Assembly: GCA_021821365.1 (NCBI GenBank)
Contig: JAKACN010000011.1
Span: forward strand, 1-44,364
Direction: 5' to 3'
From: Pseudomonadota bacterium
Lineage (GTDB): Bacteria; Pseudomonadota; Gammaproteobacteria; Burkholderiales; Burkholderiaceae_D
DNA length: 44,364 nucleotides
A program made the position numbers and the translations under genes. Shown here one piece after another: positions 19,876 through 27,174 of the stretch. Below the pieces are notes generated by a model. It did not search any database and was not told where the DNA came from. It saw only the letters and a program-made list of their open reading frames with translations. Position 1 is the stretch's first letter. Each line of letters starts with the position of its first letter.

Positions 19876-20229
19876 TCAGCTTCCTCGATACGTCGAATAC
19901 GCCCAGGGCGAGACGGCCAGCGGCACATGGAAATTCTCGTCGGGATCGGCGATGCCGAACGCGACGATCACCCGATCCAGGAAGCGTGGCTGCGGAACGA
20001 CAAGGCCATGGCCGGCGAAATATTCACCGATACCGAACACGAGTTCGTACTGGCCCGCGCGCATGTCTTCGCCTTGCAGCAGCGGCGCGCCGCAACGTCC
20101 GTCGTGGTTGGTGGTCGTGCTGCACAGCAGACTTCGCTGGGTCGCCTTCACTTCATACAGTTCCACCTCCACGCCCGCCGCCGGTTTGCCGTGGGCAATG
20201 TCGAGCACATGGGTCGTCAGTTTTCCCAT
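19876..20229 (-). CDS. hiuH: 5-hydroxyisourate hydrolase
   Basis: This 117-residue transthyretin-like protein hydrolyses 5-hydroxyisourate, the product of urate oxidase, to OHCU in the urate-to-allantoin route. It has the family start LTTHVLDIAHGKPAAGV, a central TNHDGRC segment and the diagnostic C-terminus YSTYRGS, in which the YRGS tetrapeptide lines the active site. Length is normal. The start ATG 20229 has a CAGGAGA site. It is divergent from xdhA and shares a 196-base control region with it. It precedes the BMP importer on the same strand but is separated by 394 bases and a long inverted repeat, so cotranscription is uncertain. No urate oxidase or OHCU decarboxylase gene is in the window. 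Confidence 0.93.
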   Translation of the reverse strand: MGKLTTHVLDIAHGKPAAGVEVELYEVKATQRSLLCSTTTNHDGRCGAPLLQGEDMRAGQYELVFGIGEYFAGHGLVVPQPRFLDRVIVAFGIADPDENFHVPLAVSPWAYSTYRGS

Positions 20230-20425: not shown

Positions 20426-21901
20426 ATGTCGCATCCCATTCGTTTCTTTTATCGCGGGCAGGTCCACACGGTATCCGATGTGCCGCCAACCCGCACCATC
20501 CTGCAGCACGTGCGCGAGGACCATCGCTGCACCGGCACCAAGGAAGGCTGTGCCGAGGGCGACTGCGGCGCGTGCACGGTAGTGGTCGCCGAACTGAAAG
20601 GCGATGCGGTCGACATGAAGCCGGTCAATGCCTGCATCCAGTTTCTGCCCACCCTGGACGGCAAAGCCTTGTTCACCGTCGAAGACCTGAAACAGCCGGA
20701 TGGCAGCCTGCATCCCGTACAACAGGCAATGGTGGACTGCCATGGTTCGCAATGCGGTTTCTGCACGCCGGGTTTCATCATGTCGCTGTGGAGCCTGTAC
20801 CTGATGCAGGAGGGGAAAACCACGCCGTTGGACCGCAAGGAAATCGACGACACGCTGTCCGGCAACCTGTGCCGCTGCACCGGCTATCGGCCCATCATCG
20901 ACGCCGCGCATCGCATGCTCGAACTGCCGCGCGCAAACTTCGATCACAAAACGCTGGCAGCGACATTGAAGGATATCCGGCGCACCGACATGCTGACCTA
21001 TGCAGGCGAAGGCCGATCCTTCCATGTGCCCTTGTCGCTCCAGCAATTGATCGATCTGCGCGCGGAGAACCCGTCCGCCACCCTTCTCTCGGGATCGACC
21101 GATGTCGGTCTGTGGGTGACCAAGCAGATGCGCGAACTCGGCGACATCATCCACATCAACCAGGTTGCGGAGTTGCAGTGCATGGTCGAAAAGGATGGCA
21201 AGCTCGAGATCGGCGCGGCCGTCACGCTCAACGACGCGTATGCAGCGCTGTGCAGACATTATCCGCAGGAGCTGTCGGAGCTGTGGCAGCGCTTCGCCTC
21301 GCAACCGATCCGCCATGCCGGTACACTGGTCGGCAACGTCGCCAACGGTTCGCCGATCGGCGATTCCGCCCCATGGCTGATCGCCCTCGGCAGCGACATC
21401 GTGCTGTGCGGCAGGAATGGCCAACGCGTGATGCCGCTTGAAAATTTCTATCTCGATTACCAGAAAAAGGACCTGCGTCCGGACGAGTTCGTCGAATCCG
21501 TGCGCGTGCCGCTGCCGCACCCGGGCCTGCGCTTCCGCACCTACAAACTTTCCAAACGTTTTGATCAGGACATTTCGTCGGTATGCGCCGCCTTCGCCCT
21601 CACACTCGATGGGGATGTCGTGCAAGCCGCGCGCATTGCCTTCGGCGGCATGGCGGCAACGTCGCGACGCGCACCGAAAGCCGAAGCCGCGCTGACAGGC
21701 CGTACCTGGGATGAAGCGGCGCTTGCCGATGCCGTGCAGGCGCTCGCCGACGATTACGCTCCGCTCACCGACATGCGCGCCAGCGGCACCTATCGCAGCA
21801 AGGCGGCGCAGAACCTGTTGCGCCGCTTCTGGCTGGAGACGCGGCCGGATGCACCGCTCCCCTCCTGCGCAGTCAACGCATTCGCGGATGCCCGACCATG
21901 A
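20426..21901 (+). CDS. xdhA: Xanthine dehydrogenase small subunit (2Fe-2S and FAD)
   Basis: This 491-residue subunit carries the electron-transfer cofactors of xanthine dehydrogenase, which oxidises hypoxanthine to xanthine and urate using NAD. The first iron-sulfur cluster is bound by Cys42, 47, 50 and 70 (GCAEGDCGAC...C) and the second by Cys110, 113, 149 and 151 (CGFC and CRC). The FAD domain follows, with LLSGSTDVGLWVT near residue 220 and the GTLVGNVANGSPIGD motif near 305. The C-terminal CO-dehydrogenase flavoprotein-type domain completes it. The start ATG 20426 has only a weak GAG site. The last four bases overlap xdhB (ATGA), so the subunits are translationally coupled. Confidence 0.96.
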   Translation: MSHPIRFFYRGQVHTVSDVPPTRTILQHVREDHRCTGTKEGCAEGDCGACTVVVAELKGDAVDMKPVNACIQFLPTLDGKALFTVEDLKQPDGSLHPVQQAMVDCHGSQCGFCTPGFIMSLWSLYLMQEGKTTPLDRKEIDDTLSGNLCRCTGYRPIIDAAHRMLELPRANFDHKTLAATLKDIRRTDMLTYAGEGRSFHVPLSLQQLIDLRAENPSATLLSGSTDVGLWVTKQMRELGDIIHINQVAELQCMVEKDGKLEIGAAVTLNDAYAALCRHYPQELSELWQRFASQPIRHAGTLVGNVANGSPIGDSAPWLIALGSDIVLCGRNGQRVMPLENFYLDYQKKDLRPDEFVESVRVPLPHPGLRFRTYKLSKRFDQDISSVCAAFALTLDGDVVQAARIAFGGMAATSRRAPKAEAALTGRTWDEAALADAVQALADDYAPLTDMRASGTYRSKAAQNLLRRFWLETRPDAPLPSCAVNAFADARP

Positions 21902-24258
21902 ACAAGCAAACCGAAACCATCCTGAAGCCGGACGCCACCGCGCAATGGACGGCAGTCGGCGTGCCGCAACCGCATGAATCGGCGCGGCTGCATGTGCTGG
22001 GCGAGGCCACCTACACCGATGACATTCCCGAGTTGCAGGGCACCTTGCACGCCGCACTCGGTCTCTCCCGGAAGGCGCATGCGAAGGTCAAGTCGATCGA
22101 CCTCGCCGACGTGCGGAAGTCGCGCGGCGTCGTGGCTGTCTACACCGCAAACGACATTCCCGGCCTCAACGACTGCGGACCGATCGTCCACGACGACCCG
22201 ATCCTGGCCGACCGACTCGTGCAGTATGTGGGCCAGCCGATGTTCCTGGTCGTTGCCGACACGCATGACAATGCGCGCCGCGCCGCCCGCCTGGCCAGGA
22301 TCGATTATGAAGAACTGCCCGCCATCCTGACGGCGCAGGATGCCAAACGCGCGCAATCCTGGGTGCTGCCGCCGATGCATCTCGCGCGTGGCGATGTCAG
22401 GCAGGCATTCGAACAGGCGCCGCACCGGATCAAGGGCGAATTCCATGTCGGCGGACAGGAGCAGTTCTACCTCGAAGGGCAGATTTCTTACGCCATTCCG
22501 AAGGAAGACCGAGGCATGCTGGTCTACTGCTCGACGCAGCATCCTTCGGAAATGCAGCATGTGATCGCGCAGGCGCTCGGGCTGCATTCGCACAATGTCA
22601 CGGTCGAATGCCGGCGCATGGGTGGCGGCTTCGGCGGCAAGGAATCGCAGTCGGCGCTGTGGGCCGCCGCCGCATCGGTGGCCGCAGCGCGGCTGAACTG
22701 CCCGGTCAAGCTGCGCGCGGACCGCGACGACGACATGATGGTGACCGGCAAGCGCCACGACTTCCATTATGAGTACGAGGTCGGCTACGACAGCGACGGC
22801 CGCATCCTCGCGGCGAAAGTCGAAATGGTTGCGCGCGCGGGCTACTCTGCCGACTTGTCCGGCCCGGTCGCGACGCGCGCCGTTTGCCATTTCGACAATG
22901 CCTACTACCTGCCCGCCGTCGACATCGTCGCCCTGTGCGGCAAGACGCATACGCAATCCAATACCGCCTTCCGCGGTTTCGGCGGGCCGCAGGGCGCCAT
23001 CGCGATCGAGGTTGTGATCGACGAGATCGCGCGCAATCTCGGCAAGGATCCGCTGGATGTGCGCAAGCTGAATTTCTATGGCCGAAATGACGCGGAAGGC
23101 CGCAACATCACCCCATACGGACAGAAGGTGTCCGACAACATCATCCATGAACTCGTGGCGCAACTGGAGGCCGACAGCGACTACCGCGAACGCCGCACCA
23201 AGCTGCGAGCCTTCAATGCCGCCAGTCCGGTGTTGAAGAAAGGCATTGCCTTCACGCCGGTCAAGTTCGGCATCGCCTTCAATCTCACCCACCTGAACCA
23301 GGCCGGCGCGCTGGTGCATGTTTATGTCGACGGCTCCGTGCTGGTCAACCATGGCGGCACCGAGATGGGCCAGGGCGTGAACACCAAGGTGGCGCAGATC
23401 GTGGCGCACGAACTCGGGCTGGACACGTCGCACGTGCGCATTGCCGCGACCGATACCAGCAAGGTGGCCAACACCTCCGCCACCGCCGCTTCGACCGGCG
23501 CCGACCTGAACGGCAAGGCGGCGCAGGACGCGGCCCGCCAGATCCGCGAGCGACTTGCCGTCTTCGCGGCGCAATCGGCCAATGTCGAACCGTCGGCGGT
23601 AAGTTTCGCGGACAACCATGTCTATGTGAGCGGTGTACCGGAAAGCTTCGGGTCCCTGGTGCGGCGCGCCTACAACGCGCGCATCCAGCTATGGTCTGAC
23701 GGTTTCTACGCCACGCCCGGCCTGCACTGGGATGCGCAGACAATGACCGGCCATCCCTTCTTCTATTTCGCCTATGGCGCCGCCGTATCGGAGGTCATCG
23801 TCGACACGCTGACCGGCGAATGGAAGCTGCTGCGCGTCGACGCGCTGTACGATGCCGGCAACTCGCTCAACCCGGCGATCGATATCGGCCAGGTCGAGGG
23901 CGGCTTCATTCAGGGCATGGGCTGGCTGACAACCGAGGAACTGTGGTGGGACAAGGCGGGCACGCTGATGACCCATGCACCGTCGACGTACAAGATTCCC
24001 GCAATTTCAGACTGTCCGCGCGATTTCCGAGTGATGCTGTTCAAGAACCGCAATGCTGCGGACAGCATCCATCGCTCAAAGGCCGTGGGCGAACCGCCGC
24101 TGCTGCTGTCCTTCTCCGTATTTTTCGCGCTCCGCGATGCGATCGCCGGCGTGGGCGATGACAAGGTGCATCCGCCCTTGCGCGCACCGGCGACCGGCGA
24201 AACCATCCTGAATGCCATCGAGGCGGTGCGCGCGGCCGCTGGCCCTGCAACGCCATGA
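21898..24258 (+). CDS. xdhB: Xanthine dehydrogenase large subunit (molybdopterin)
   Basis: This 786-residue molybdenum subunit is the site of purine hydroxylation. Landmarks by comparison with xanthine oxidase are GGGFGGKE at residues 242-249, FRGFGGPQ at 358-365 (containing the substrate-binding arginine), GGTEMGQGVNTK near 485, QVEGGFIQGMGW near 665, and KAVGEPPLLL with Glu732, the expected catalytic glutamate. All are intact, so the enzyme should be active on xanthine. It overlaps xdhA and xdhC by four bases each. It works as a heterotetramer with XdhA in the cytoplasm. Confidence 0.96.
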   Translation: MNKQTETILKPDATAQWTAVGVPQPHESARLHVLGEATYTDDIPELQGTLHAALGLSRKAHAKVKSIDLADVRKSRGVVAVYTANDIPGLNDCGPIVHDDPILADRLVQYVGQPMFLVVADTHDNARRAARLARIDYEELPAILTAQDAKRAQSWVLPPMHLARGDVRQAFEQAPHRIKGEFHVGGQEQFYLEGQISYAIPKEDRGMLVYCSTQHPSEMQHVIAQALGLHSHNVTVECRRMGGGFGGKESQSALWAAAASVAAARLNCPVKLRADRDDDMMVTGKRHDFHYEYEVGYDSDGRILAAKVEMVARAGYSADLSGPVATRAVCHFDNAYYLPAVDIVALCGKTHTQSNTAFRGFGGPQGAIAIEVVIDEIARNLGKDPLDVRKLNFYGRNDAEGRNITPYGQKVSDNIIHELVAQLEADSDYRERRTKLRAFNAASPVLKKGIAFTPVKFGIAFNLTHLNQAGALVHVYVDGSVLVNHGGTEMGQGVNTKVAQIVAHELGLDTSHVRIAATDTSKVANTSATAASTGADLNGKAAQDAARQIRERLAVFAAQSANVEPSAVSFADNHVYVSGVPESFGSLVRRAYNARIQLWSDGFYATPGLHWDAQTMTGHPFFYFAYGAAVSEVIVDTLTGEWKLLRVDALYDAGNSLNPAIDIGQVEGGFIQGMGWLTTEELWWDKAGTLMTHAPSTYKIPAISDCPRDFRVMLFKNRNAADSIHRSKAVGEPPLLLSFSVFFALRDAIAGVGDDKVHPPLRAPATGETILNAIEAVRAAAGPATP

Positions 24259-25307
24259 ACGACTGGCATTCCGCACTCTTCTCCGCCGCGGCAGACGGGG
24301 AACCCGCCGTGCTGGTTACGATCGCCTCGGTGCAGGGTTCCAGCCCGCGCGAACCGGGTGCGAAGATGGTGGTGACCGCACATGCGCAAATCGGCACCGT
24401 CGGCGGCGGACACCTGGAGATGCGTGCCTGCGACATCGCGCGCGACATGCTCGCCGCACCGCCGACCTCCGTCGCCGCGATCCGGCGCATCGAACGCTTT
24501 TCGCTCGGTCCCAGCCTCGGCCAATGCTGTGGCGGCGTGGTTTTTCTCGCCTTCGAGCGCATCCGGGAGAACGACCGCGCCGCGCTCGATTGCATCGATG
24601 CATGCTGGCGCAATCGTGAGGACATCACCCGCCTGGTTGCGCTCGATGCGACATGGCCGCCGGTCGTGGTCGACGGCGCCGGGTTTCCGCGCATGGGGGC
24701 GATTCCACGCATCGTGCCGCGCCCCGATCATCTGGATGCATGCCACCTGATCAAGGATGCCGAAGGCGGGCGATGGCTGGTCGATCCCCTCCTCGTCCGC
24801 AGGCCGCTGCTGGTCCTGTTCGGCGCCGGCCATGTCGGCGCCGCCACCATTCGCGCCCTCGCTGACCTGCCCTGCGACGTGATCTGGGTGGACGAACGCG
24901 AAAACATGTTTCCGGAGAGCGTGCCGCCGAACGTGAAGATCGAAGTGACCGATACGCCGGCGGCGGTGGTCGATGACGTCCCCGCCGCCACGAGCTATCT
25001 CGTCATGACGCACAGTCATGCGCTCGACCAGCTTCTCGCGGAAGCCATCCTGCGCCGCGTCGACGCGGGATGGTTCGGCCTGATCGGATCGAAGACCAAG
25101 CGCATGCAGTTCGAGCATCGCCTGCTGGAGCGCGGCATTGCCCGAATGCGCCTGTCGAACATGGTGTGCCCGGTCGGCATACCCGGCATCGGCGGCAAAT
25201 CGCCCGCTGTGATTGCCGCCTCCGTGTGCGCGCAGTTGCTGCAGGTGTGGGAAACAGAGGAACGCACACGCATGCAGTCGGTACCGGATTCACCTTCTGT
25301 CCCATAA
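24255..25307 (+). CDS. xdhC: Xanthine dehydrogenase accessory protein XdhC
   Basis: This 350-residue protein binds the molybdenum cofactor, helps its sulfuration and inserts it into XdhB. The N-terminal XdhC/CoxI domain has QGSSPREPGAKMVV near residue 28 and GQCCGGVV near 92, and the C-terminal Rossmann-like domain has LFGAGHVGAATIRALADL near 190. The later LIGSKTKRMQFEHRL and GIPGIGGKSPAVIAASV segments are also typical. It starts inside the xdhB stop (ATGA). The gene stops at 25305-25307 and is followed without a gap by the guanine deaminase remnant, in the same reading frame. Confidence 0.94.
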   Translation: MNDWHSALFSAAADGEPAVLVTIASVQGSSPREPGAKMVVTAHAQIGTVGGGHLEMRACDIARDMLAAPPTSVAAIRRIERFSLGPSLGQCCGGVVFLAFERIRENDRAALDCIDACWRNREDITRLVALDATWPPVVVDGAGFPRMGAIPRIVPRPDHLDACHLIKDAEGGRWLVDPLLVRRPLLVLFGAGHVGAATIRALADLPCDVIWVDERENMFPESVPPNVKIEVTDTPAAVVDDVPAATSYLVMTHSHALDQLLAEAILRRVDAGWFGLIGSKTKRMQFEHRLLERGIARMRLSNMVCPVGIPGIGGKSPAVIAASVCAQLLQVWETEERTRMQSVPDSPSVP

Positions 25308-25475
25308 GTCCGCACGGATTTTGTTGTATTGGACCCACACGCGGCACCCTTGCCGGAACGCCGCACAGCCCATGCTGAATCGCTCGACGAGCTCCTGTTT
25401 GCGCTCGCCATGCCGGGCGACGATCGCACGGTCGCGGCGACGTATGCCGCAGGAAGACTCGTTCATGCGCGTGGA
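25308..25475 (+). pseudogene. guaD: C-terminal remnant of guanine deaminase
   Basis: Directly after the xdhC stop, 56 codons read TDFVVLDPHAAPLPERRT, then AESLDELLFALAMPGDDR, then TVAATYAAGRLVH. This matches my recollection of the C-terminus of guanine deaminase (amidohydrolase family, guanine to xanthine), whose members end with ADFVVLD...TPL and SLEELLFALMxLGDDR-xxxATYVAGR blocks. In Burkholderiales guaD commonly follows xdhC. Here about 380 N-terminal residues, including all metal ligands, are missing, no start codon or ribosome-binding site is present, and the original stop is lost (the frame runs on to 25730 with non-homologous sequence). The gene therefore looks inactivated by a large deletion whose left edge abuts the xdhC stop. 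Confidence 0.75.
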
Positions 25476-25705
25476 GTAATGTTTGCCGAGGGCACTGCTG
25501 CAAATGTCCCTGCCCGGAACATGGCTTGGCGCGATGTCGCCCGCGCACCGCGATTCGTCGCTCGTCCCTCTTTCGCGGATGCAGCAATGGAAAGTAAAAT
25601 AATTGCCGTTCAGAAATCTGGACGCGTCGCATCAATCTCTACGCAGGTATTGACCGTACGGCGAGGCTTCCCGGTTTCATTCATCGCATCTGACCAGGAG
25701 AATAC
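25476..25705. other. Intergenic region before the porin gene
   Basis: Beyond the guaD remnant the open frame continues but shows no recognisable protein. The last 100 bases become more AT-rich and should contain the porin promoter. No clear consensus was found. Confidence 0.35.
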
Positions 25706-26803
25706 ATGCAACAACTCAAGACCGGATTGAAACAGGTCGCCTTCGCCGCGGCCATCCTCGCCGCAGCCGCGCCTGCCGCCATGGCGCAGACCAATGTTTC
25801 CGTGAGCGGGCTCGTCGATGTCTTCGCAGGCAAACTGCGCAATGCGGGCGACGCCAACAGCCGTTCCGTCGTCAACAGCGGCGGCATGACCACCTCCTGG
25901 TTCGGCTTCAAGGGTTCCGAAGACCTCGGCGACGGCCTGAAGGCGAACTTCCAGCTGACCAGCTTCATCCAGGCCGATACGGGCACGCAGGGTCGGTTCC
26001 CGGGCGACACGCTGTTCTCGCGCGACGCGAACGTCGGCCTGTCCGGCAGCTTCGGTGCATTCTCTCTCGGGCGCGAACTGGCGCCGAACTTCCTGCCCAC
26101 CATCCTGTTCAATCCGTTCGGCGATTCCTTCACCTTCTCGCCGCTGATCCTGCACACGGACGTGCCGCTCTTCAACGGTTCGAGCTGGACCAACTCGGTG
26201 GCCAGCGACACCGGCTGGAGCAACTCGATCCGCTACACCACGCCGAATTTCGGCGGCCTGACCGCGAACCTGCATTACCAGTTCGGCGAGGTTGCCGGCA
26301 GCAACGGCAAGAACAACGTCGGCCTGAACCTGCTCTACTTCGGCGGCCCGCTGGCCCTGACGGCCTTCTATCACAACGCGGAAATCAACAATCCGCTCAA
26401 CGTCCCGGTGGGCAACGTGCAGCCTGCAGGCAACCTGCCGCTTCCGTCCGGCCTCTCGGCTGCGCGCCAGACGGCATGGATGGTCGGCGGAAGCTATGAC
26501 CTGAAGGCGGCAAAACTGTTTGCCACCTACGGCCAGACCTCGCACGACATCGATCTTGACGACAAGACGACGTCGCTCGGCGCGACCGTACCCGCCGGCC
26601 CGGGCAAGTTCCTCGCTGCGTGGGCGCAGACCAAGCGCAGCGGCACCGCGATTGGCGCGGACCAGAAGCGCAATACCACGTCGATCGGATACGACTACGA
26701 CATGTCCAGGCGCACCGACCTGTATGCCGTGTTCATGAACGATCGCATCACCGCCCAGAACAACGGCAACAGCTTCGGCGTCGGCATCCGTCACCGCTTC
26801 TGA
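25706..26803 (+). CDS. Outer-membrane porin (Gram-negative general diffusion type)
   Basis: This 365-residue trimeric beta-barrel porin is of the betaproteobacterial OmpC-like (porin_4) family. It has a signal peptide of about 28 residues ending AMA-QTN. It then has the first strand VSVSGLVDVFAG and the typical WFGFKGSEDLGDGLKANFQL block, alternating strands and a C-terminal aromatic residue (SFGVGIRHRF) needed for barrel assembly. ATG 25706 follows an AGGAG site. It is a single-gene unit with its own terminator at 26901-26927. Its place after the purine genes suggests, but does not show, a role in purine entry. Confidence 0.93.
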   Translation: MQQLKTGLKQVAFAAAILAAAAPAAMAQTNVSVSGLVDVFAGKLRNAGDANSRSVVNSGGMTTSWFGFKGSEDLGDGLKANFQLTSFIQADTGTQGRFPGDTLFSRDANVGLSGSFGAFSLGRELAPNFLPTILFNPFGDSFTFSPLILHTDVPLFNGSSWTNSVASDTGWSNSIRYTTPNFGGLTANLHYQFGEVAGSNGKNNVGLNLLYFGGPLALTAFYHNAEINNPLNVPVGNVQPAGNLPLPSGLSAARQTAWMVGGSYDLKAAKLFATYGQTSHDIDLDDKTTSLGATVPAGPGKFLAAWAQTKRSGTAIGADQKRNTTSIGYDYDMSRRTDLYAVFMNDRITAQNNGNSFGVGIRHRF

Positions 26804-27073: not shown

Positions 27074-27174
27074 TGCTCTCGCCAAGACGCCAGGAACGCC
27101 AAGGGATTACTTCTCTTTCAGCCGATGAACGATGCGTCCATTCCCTTGGCGTTCCTGGCGCCTTGGCGAGAGCA
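27074..27174. repeat. 101-bp palindromic intergenic element of a second family
   Basis: Two 33-base arms (27074-27106 and 27142-27174) are reverse complements with a single mismatch, around a 35-base loop. The arm words are CTCTCGCCAAGACGCCAGG and CTTGGCGTTCCTGGCGCC. The build resembles the GTCCAC...GTGGAC elements (long arms made of short repeated words, intergenic position), but the sequence is different. It lies between the porin terminator and the LysR gene. The frame starting at 27125 is extended by the repeat and should not be used for the LysR start. Confidence 0.8.

Follow-up and report, generated by a model that had tools for sequence, protein, structure and literature searches.

PMC11651626 places xdhABC upstream of guaD1 in Pseudomonas aeruginosa and describes two guaD loci there, one behind xdhABC and the other without it; its authors suggest that the second guaD was acquired with its own xdhABC, which was then lost through redundancy. 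The purine catabolism cluster of Betaproteobacteria likewise has guaD downstream of xdhABC, and the gene described here has the same position and order as in that cluster and as guaD1. Unlike the guaD of that cluster, however, it is cut to its last ∼54 codons. The likeness to P. aeruginosa guaD1/guaD2 extends to the presence of two copies and a loss through redundancy; P. aeruginosa keeps both guaD genes (PMC11651626), whereas our genome lost the xdh-linked copy and kept the distant one. In the accessible parts of the literature on guaD pseudogenes with xanthine dehydrogenase and on the Herbaspirillum group, there was nothing on the present case.

The best explanation as a whole, to which we give a probability of roughly 0.88, is that a pseudogene remnant was left by a deletion of ∼1.16 kb that was tolerated through a second guaD. 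The event is an ordinary gene loss in the presence of another copy. The remnant itself is most likely a pseudogene leftover, judged from its sequence.

The xdh locus and the guaD remnant

The window, that is, the whole analysed stretch of 44,364 nt, is contig C336 of a draft assembly (5.27 Mb, 419 contigs, 97.43% complete, 3.72% estimated contamination). We designate this genome G000 and the most similar genus genome in the comparison G004. The features of the locus are as follows.

19876..20229, minus strand: hydroxyisourate hydrolase gene (uraH), divergent from xdhA (TIGR02962, 126.8 bits, cut-off 87.45)
20426..21901, plus strand: xdhA, small subunit, intact (TIGR02963, 663.9 bits, cut-off 467)
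21898..24258, plus strand: xdhB, molybdopterin-binding subunit, intact (TIGR02965, 1286.1 bits, cut-off 849.5)
24255..25307, plus strand: xdhC, xanthine dehydrogenase accessory protein, intact, stop codon TAA at 25305-25307 (TIGR02964, 296.5 bits, cut-off 161.6; alignment)
25305..25316, plus strand: deletion junction, the xdhC stop codon and 9 nt before clear guaD homology (∼1.16 kb fewer bases than G004)
25311..25475, plus strand: guaD remnant, most likely a pseudogene, comprising the final ∼54 codons of a gene for guanine deaminase, with clear DNA homology from 25317 (NF006679; tblastn; blastn to the operon guaD of G004)
25476..25705, plus strand: what was once the guaD 3' end, plus the porin leader (remnant frame open to 25730; judged by eye in the alignment, roughly the final 140 nt are similar to the leader of the G004 porin)
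25706..26803, plus strand: porin gene (PF13609), in place (Pfam; synteny)

The three xdh genes were each scored against NCBIfam equivalog cut-offs, and all lie above them. We also noticed an inverted repeat (27074-27174), flanked by the porin gene and a LysR-type gene; its 33-nt arms are 97% complementary and 35 nt apart.

Directly 3' of the xdhC stop codon and in the xdhC frame, 25308-25475 is an open stretch of 56 codons, which an initial annotation made from the letters alone had taken for the C-terminus of guanine deaminase; it proposed a family search, a comparison of the xdhABC locus with related genomes and a search for another guaD in the rest of the genome. The family search agrees with that assignment: the 56-residue translation matches NF006679 at positions 380-432 of 433 (E 2.7e–13) and TIGR02967 at positions 355-401 of 401 (E 2.6e–10), and outside these two guanine deaminase families there was no NCBIfam match at E up to 1. 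Among solved structures it best matches 6ohb, a guanine deaminase of 439 residues, at residues 386-438 (E 6.5e–8); Pfam gave no match at E up to 0.01. At 49.5 bits against the NF006679 cut-off of 351 the fragment falls below full-length membership, and what the NF006679 and 6ohb matches establish is homology to the guanine deaminase C-terminus. By homology, then, the identity of the remnant as a guanine deaminase tail is confirmed and far from chance. In tblastn it found matches in 17 of the 18 loci compared, including L066 of its own genome.

In blastn the DNA resembles the G004 operon guaD from 25317 onward, beginning with 27 identical bases. Earlier parts of guaD are absent at the junction, because 9 nt separate the xdhC stop from this point, so that guaD is indeed reduced to its C-terminus, as had been claimed. 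The metal-binding and catalytic residues of guanine deaminase presumably belong to the lost part. At its other end the remnant frame overruns the usual guaD end and reaches 25730, 25 nt inside the porin gene.

Gene order in relatives and the missing DNA

Of the 14 genomes of the genus that were compared, nine (G002, G004, G005, G007-G011 and G013) have a full guaD as the next gene after xdhC. The same porin follows guaD in seven of these nine; it was not found in the stretches compared of G011 and G013. As to the remaining genus genomes, G001, G003 and G014 have a full GuaD and an absent or weak XdhC match, G006 has xdhAB without a close xdhC and guaD elsewhere, and G012 has an xdhC broken by a contig end, with no full GuaD found.

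A scan of named relatives covered the best 80 of 527 confirmed xdhC places; four of these 80 (L085-L087, L156) sit on contigs of genus genomes already counted. In 79 of these best 80 loci a full guaD, defined as more than 380 query residues aligned, is present in the 6 kb that follow xdhC. It is directly behind xdhC in 63 (62 loci with a guaD start less than 600 bp behind xdhC and one with a 12-base overlap) and 1.2-2.8 kb downstream in 16. The one locus of the 80 without guaD within 6 kb belongs to a gammaproteobacterial MAG, and a truncated guaD was found in none of them in the 6 kb downstream of xdhC. Relatives in which guaD stands behind xdhC and ahead of the same porin show what the ancestral order is likely to have been.

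The DNA of G004 aligns with the window in xdhC almost to its end and then again from 25317 through the porin. From the xdhC stop to the homologue of 25317 there are 1168 nt in G004 versus 9 nt in the window, with both flanks aligned, and therefore ∼1.16 kb was lost in place. This bears out the proposal that a deletion took most of guaD and spared xdhABC, all three genes of which score above their cut-offs. Around the junction we found short, imperfect repeat matches only. Such a search says little about the cause, because one copy of any causal repeat could have gone with the deletion.

The second guaD, guanine use and competing explanations

The search of the rest of the genome with NF006679 yielded a full GuaD at C6:3066-4346. 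It lies above both guanine deaminase cut-offs (NF006679, 662.7 bits versus 351; TIGR02967, 578.5 versus 375.4) and scores 455 bits against 6ohb, with which its DTHIHYPQ, TH, FAHC and TD-GT blocks align; we take these blocks to hold the metal ligands of guanine deaminase. Besides this gene, NF006679 detected the remnant in the assembly, as well as two weak matches on C78 that score below the cut-off (35.2 and 22.5 bits). The likely ATG of this gene, guaD2 (L066 3036), is 50 bp behind a PF00860 (Xan_ur_permease) gene, which received no NCBIfam name at E 1e–5. A large hybrid histidine kinase is encoded nearby (L066 4975-7824, on C6 of G000). As a source of the remnant the C6 copy is ruled out by 67% protein identity and by the synteny of the remnant with the xdh operon.

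We propose an ancestor with the order xdhA-xdhB-xdhC-guaD-porin. As the comparison with relatives shows, a deletion of ∼1.16 kb took out the spacer between xdhC and guaD together with the start of guaD and its first 380 or so codons, sparing xdhC and the porin. The leftover tail bears signs of drift, namely changes at conserved positions and a frame that continues beyond the usual end. The loss would have been tolerated because of the second full-length guaD elsewhere in the genome, directly behind a purine-family permease; the product of this guaD is a predicted guanine deaminase that we infer to be a back-up for the lost operon copy. Guanine might enter via the permease, be converted to xanthine by GuaD2 and be oxidized by XdhABC. 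Most likely the operon guaD became dispensable once the second copy existed.

Changes at conserved positions are indeed seen in the remnant. Of its 22 positions with a conservation of 95% or more across 91 intact sequences, four are changed; the intact sequences themselves, counted by leave-one-out, have no change in 75 cases, one in 12 and two in four. With the genus plus G028, six of 27 conserved positions are changed in the remnant, two of them from leucine to proline, versus none in 14 and one in two of the 16 intact sequences. One of the four changes, and two of the six counted with the genus, adjoin the junction and may be junction sequence rather than decay. The replacement distance to G006-G010 is 0.15-0.21 for the remnant versus 0.07-0.09 for the operon copy of G004, while the distances of the two to G001, G003, G005, G014 and G028 are about equal. 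Mean pN/pS is not raised either (0.284 for the remnant in 15 comparisons versus 0.280 for 105 intact pairs). Since overall pN/pS is not raised and the distances to the farther sequences are about equal, the decay signal is modest and the loss of guaD may be recent, 52 codons being too few for dating.

A collapse or misjoin during assembly could give the appearance of a deletion that the organism does not have, and a draft in 419 contigs with two guaD-like places invites the suspicion. We consider it very unlikely: the remnant does not stem from the C6 copy and runs into the expected porin, and changed conserved positions together with a frame past the usual end are not products of a collapse. 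The source of C6 is a related matter. Its GC content is close to that of the window (0.626 versus 0.621), and its tetranucleotide correlation with it is 0.985; but G004 contigs correlate with the window equally well (0.989, 0.982), and in a draft with some estimated contamination C6 might derive from a close relative in the sample.

Still less probable is that the strain has lost guanine use altogether, as the initial annotation predicted from the disappearance of the operon guaD. This prediction is not supported, since a full copy with an adjoining permease is present in the same assembly; what applies instead is the caveat attached to it, namely, unless another deaminase exists. Going by the C6 gene, the loss of the operon guaD need not cost the bacterium guanine use. 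The least credible option is that the tail was retained for a function, as a short peptide or a porin leader. The tail is open for 56 codons and onward to 25730, and over its whole stretch its pN/pS is that of intact pairs; against this, it has more changed conserved positions than any intact sequence, including the two leucine to proline replacements, no start site is shown for it and Pfam found nothing in the frame 25329-25727. We therefore retain the reading of a pseudogene left by deletion. The locus offers a clean example of operon erosion with a second gene copy, in which the relative G004 is still at the two-copy stage, and it warns against inferring trait loss from a damaged pathway gene in a single stretch of DNA while the remainder of the genome is unsearched.

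Distribution and origin of the permease-guaD2 block

G004 has both the operon guaD and the permease-guaD2 pair, and it is the only one among 60 genomes searched with two separate full GuaDs. G010 has a second GuaD match above the cut-off, which is partial and sits at a contig start seemingly repeating the far end. There, C2:1-4000 (L083) carries a frame-broken copy of the end of xdhB, xdhC, guaD and the porin, similar to the opposite end of this contig, and it looks like an unpolished overlap of a circular replicon, not a second cluster.

The block common to G000 and G004 is syntenic over ∼10 kb, with 77-83% DNA identity in its main pieces. When 58 candidates per genome were scored, the hybrid histidine kinase was matched in G000 and G004 only of the 15 genus genomes including our own (E 1e–150). 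In the GuaD tree the guaD2 copy on C6 of G000 is sister to that on C38 of G004 with support 100/99, and this pair is separated, with fork support of 92/93 and 93/95, from a ten-member group that includes the majority of operon copies. A tree that joins both guaD2 copies with the operon copy of G004 is not rejected (p-AU 0.062). On these trees guaD2 may have arisen by duplication within the lineage or may have an older or foreign source.

The permease adjoins guaD2 in G000 and G004. In G002, G007, G008, G009 and G010 it is instead upstream of xdhA, at a distance of 0.4-1.5 kb, which grows to ∼4 kb in G006 and to 6 kb in G013. In neither the window nor the 15 kb preceding xdhA of G004 did we find a copy. 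This placement fits a purine cluster that underwent duplication or a split in the lineage of G000 and G004, with reciprocal loss under way: permease-guaD2 without xdhABC on one side and xdhABC without the permease, and in our genome also without guaD, on the other. We hold this scenario to be tentative and rather doubtful. If true, guanine deamination would move under the control of purine uptake and away from the xdh operon.

A different arrangement was seen in G006, where xdhA-xdhB (C1 ∼3725-3729 kb, L190 3025-6844) has no xdhC in the 9 kb behind it. XdhC-like matches are weak genome-wide (best 8.1e–10), and guaD-porin lies at C1:2590011-2591291 (L071), more than 1 Mb from xdhA-xdhB. G006 possibly has a split cluster whose maturation factor is missing or replaced.
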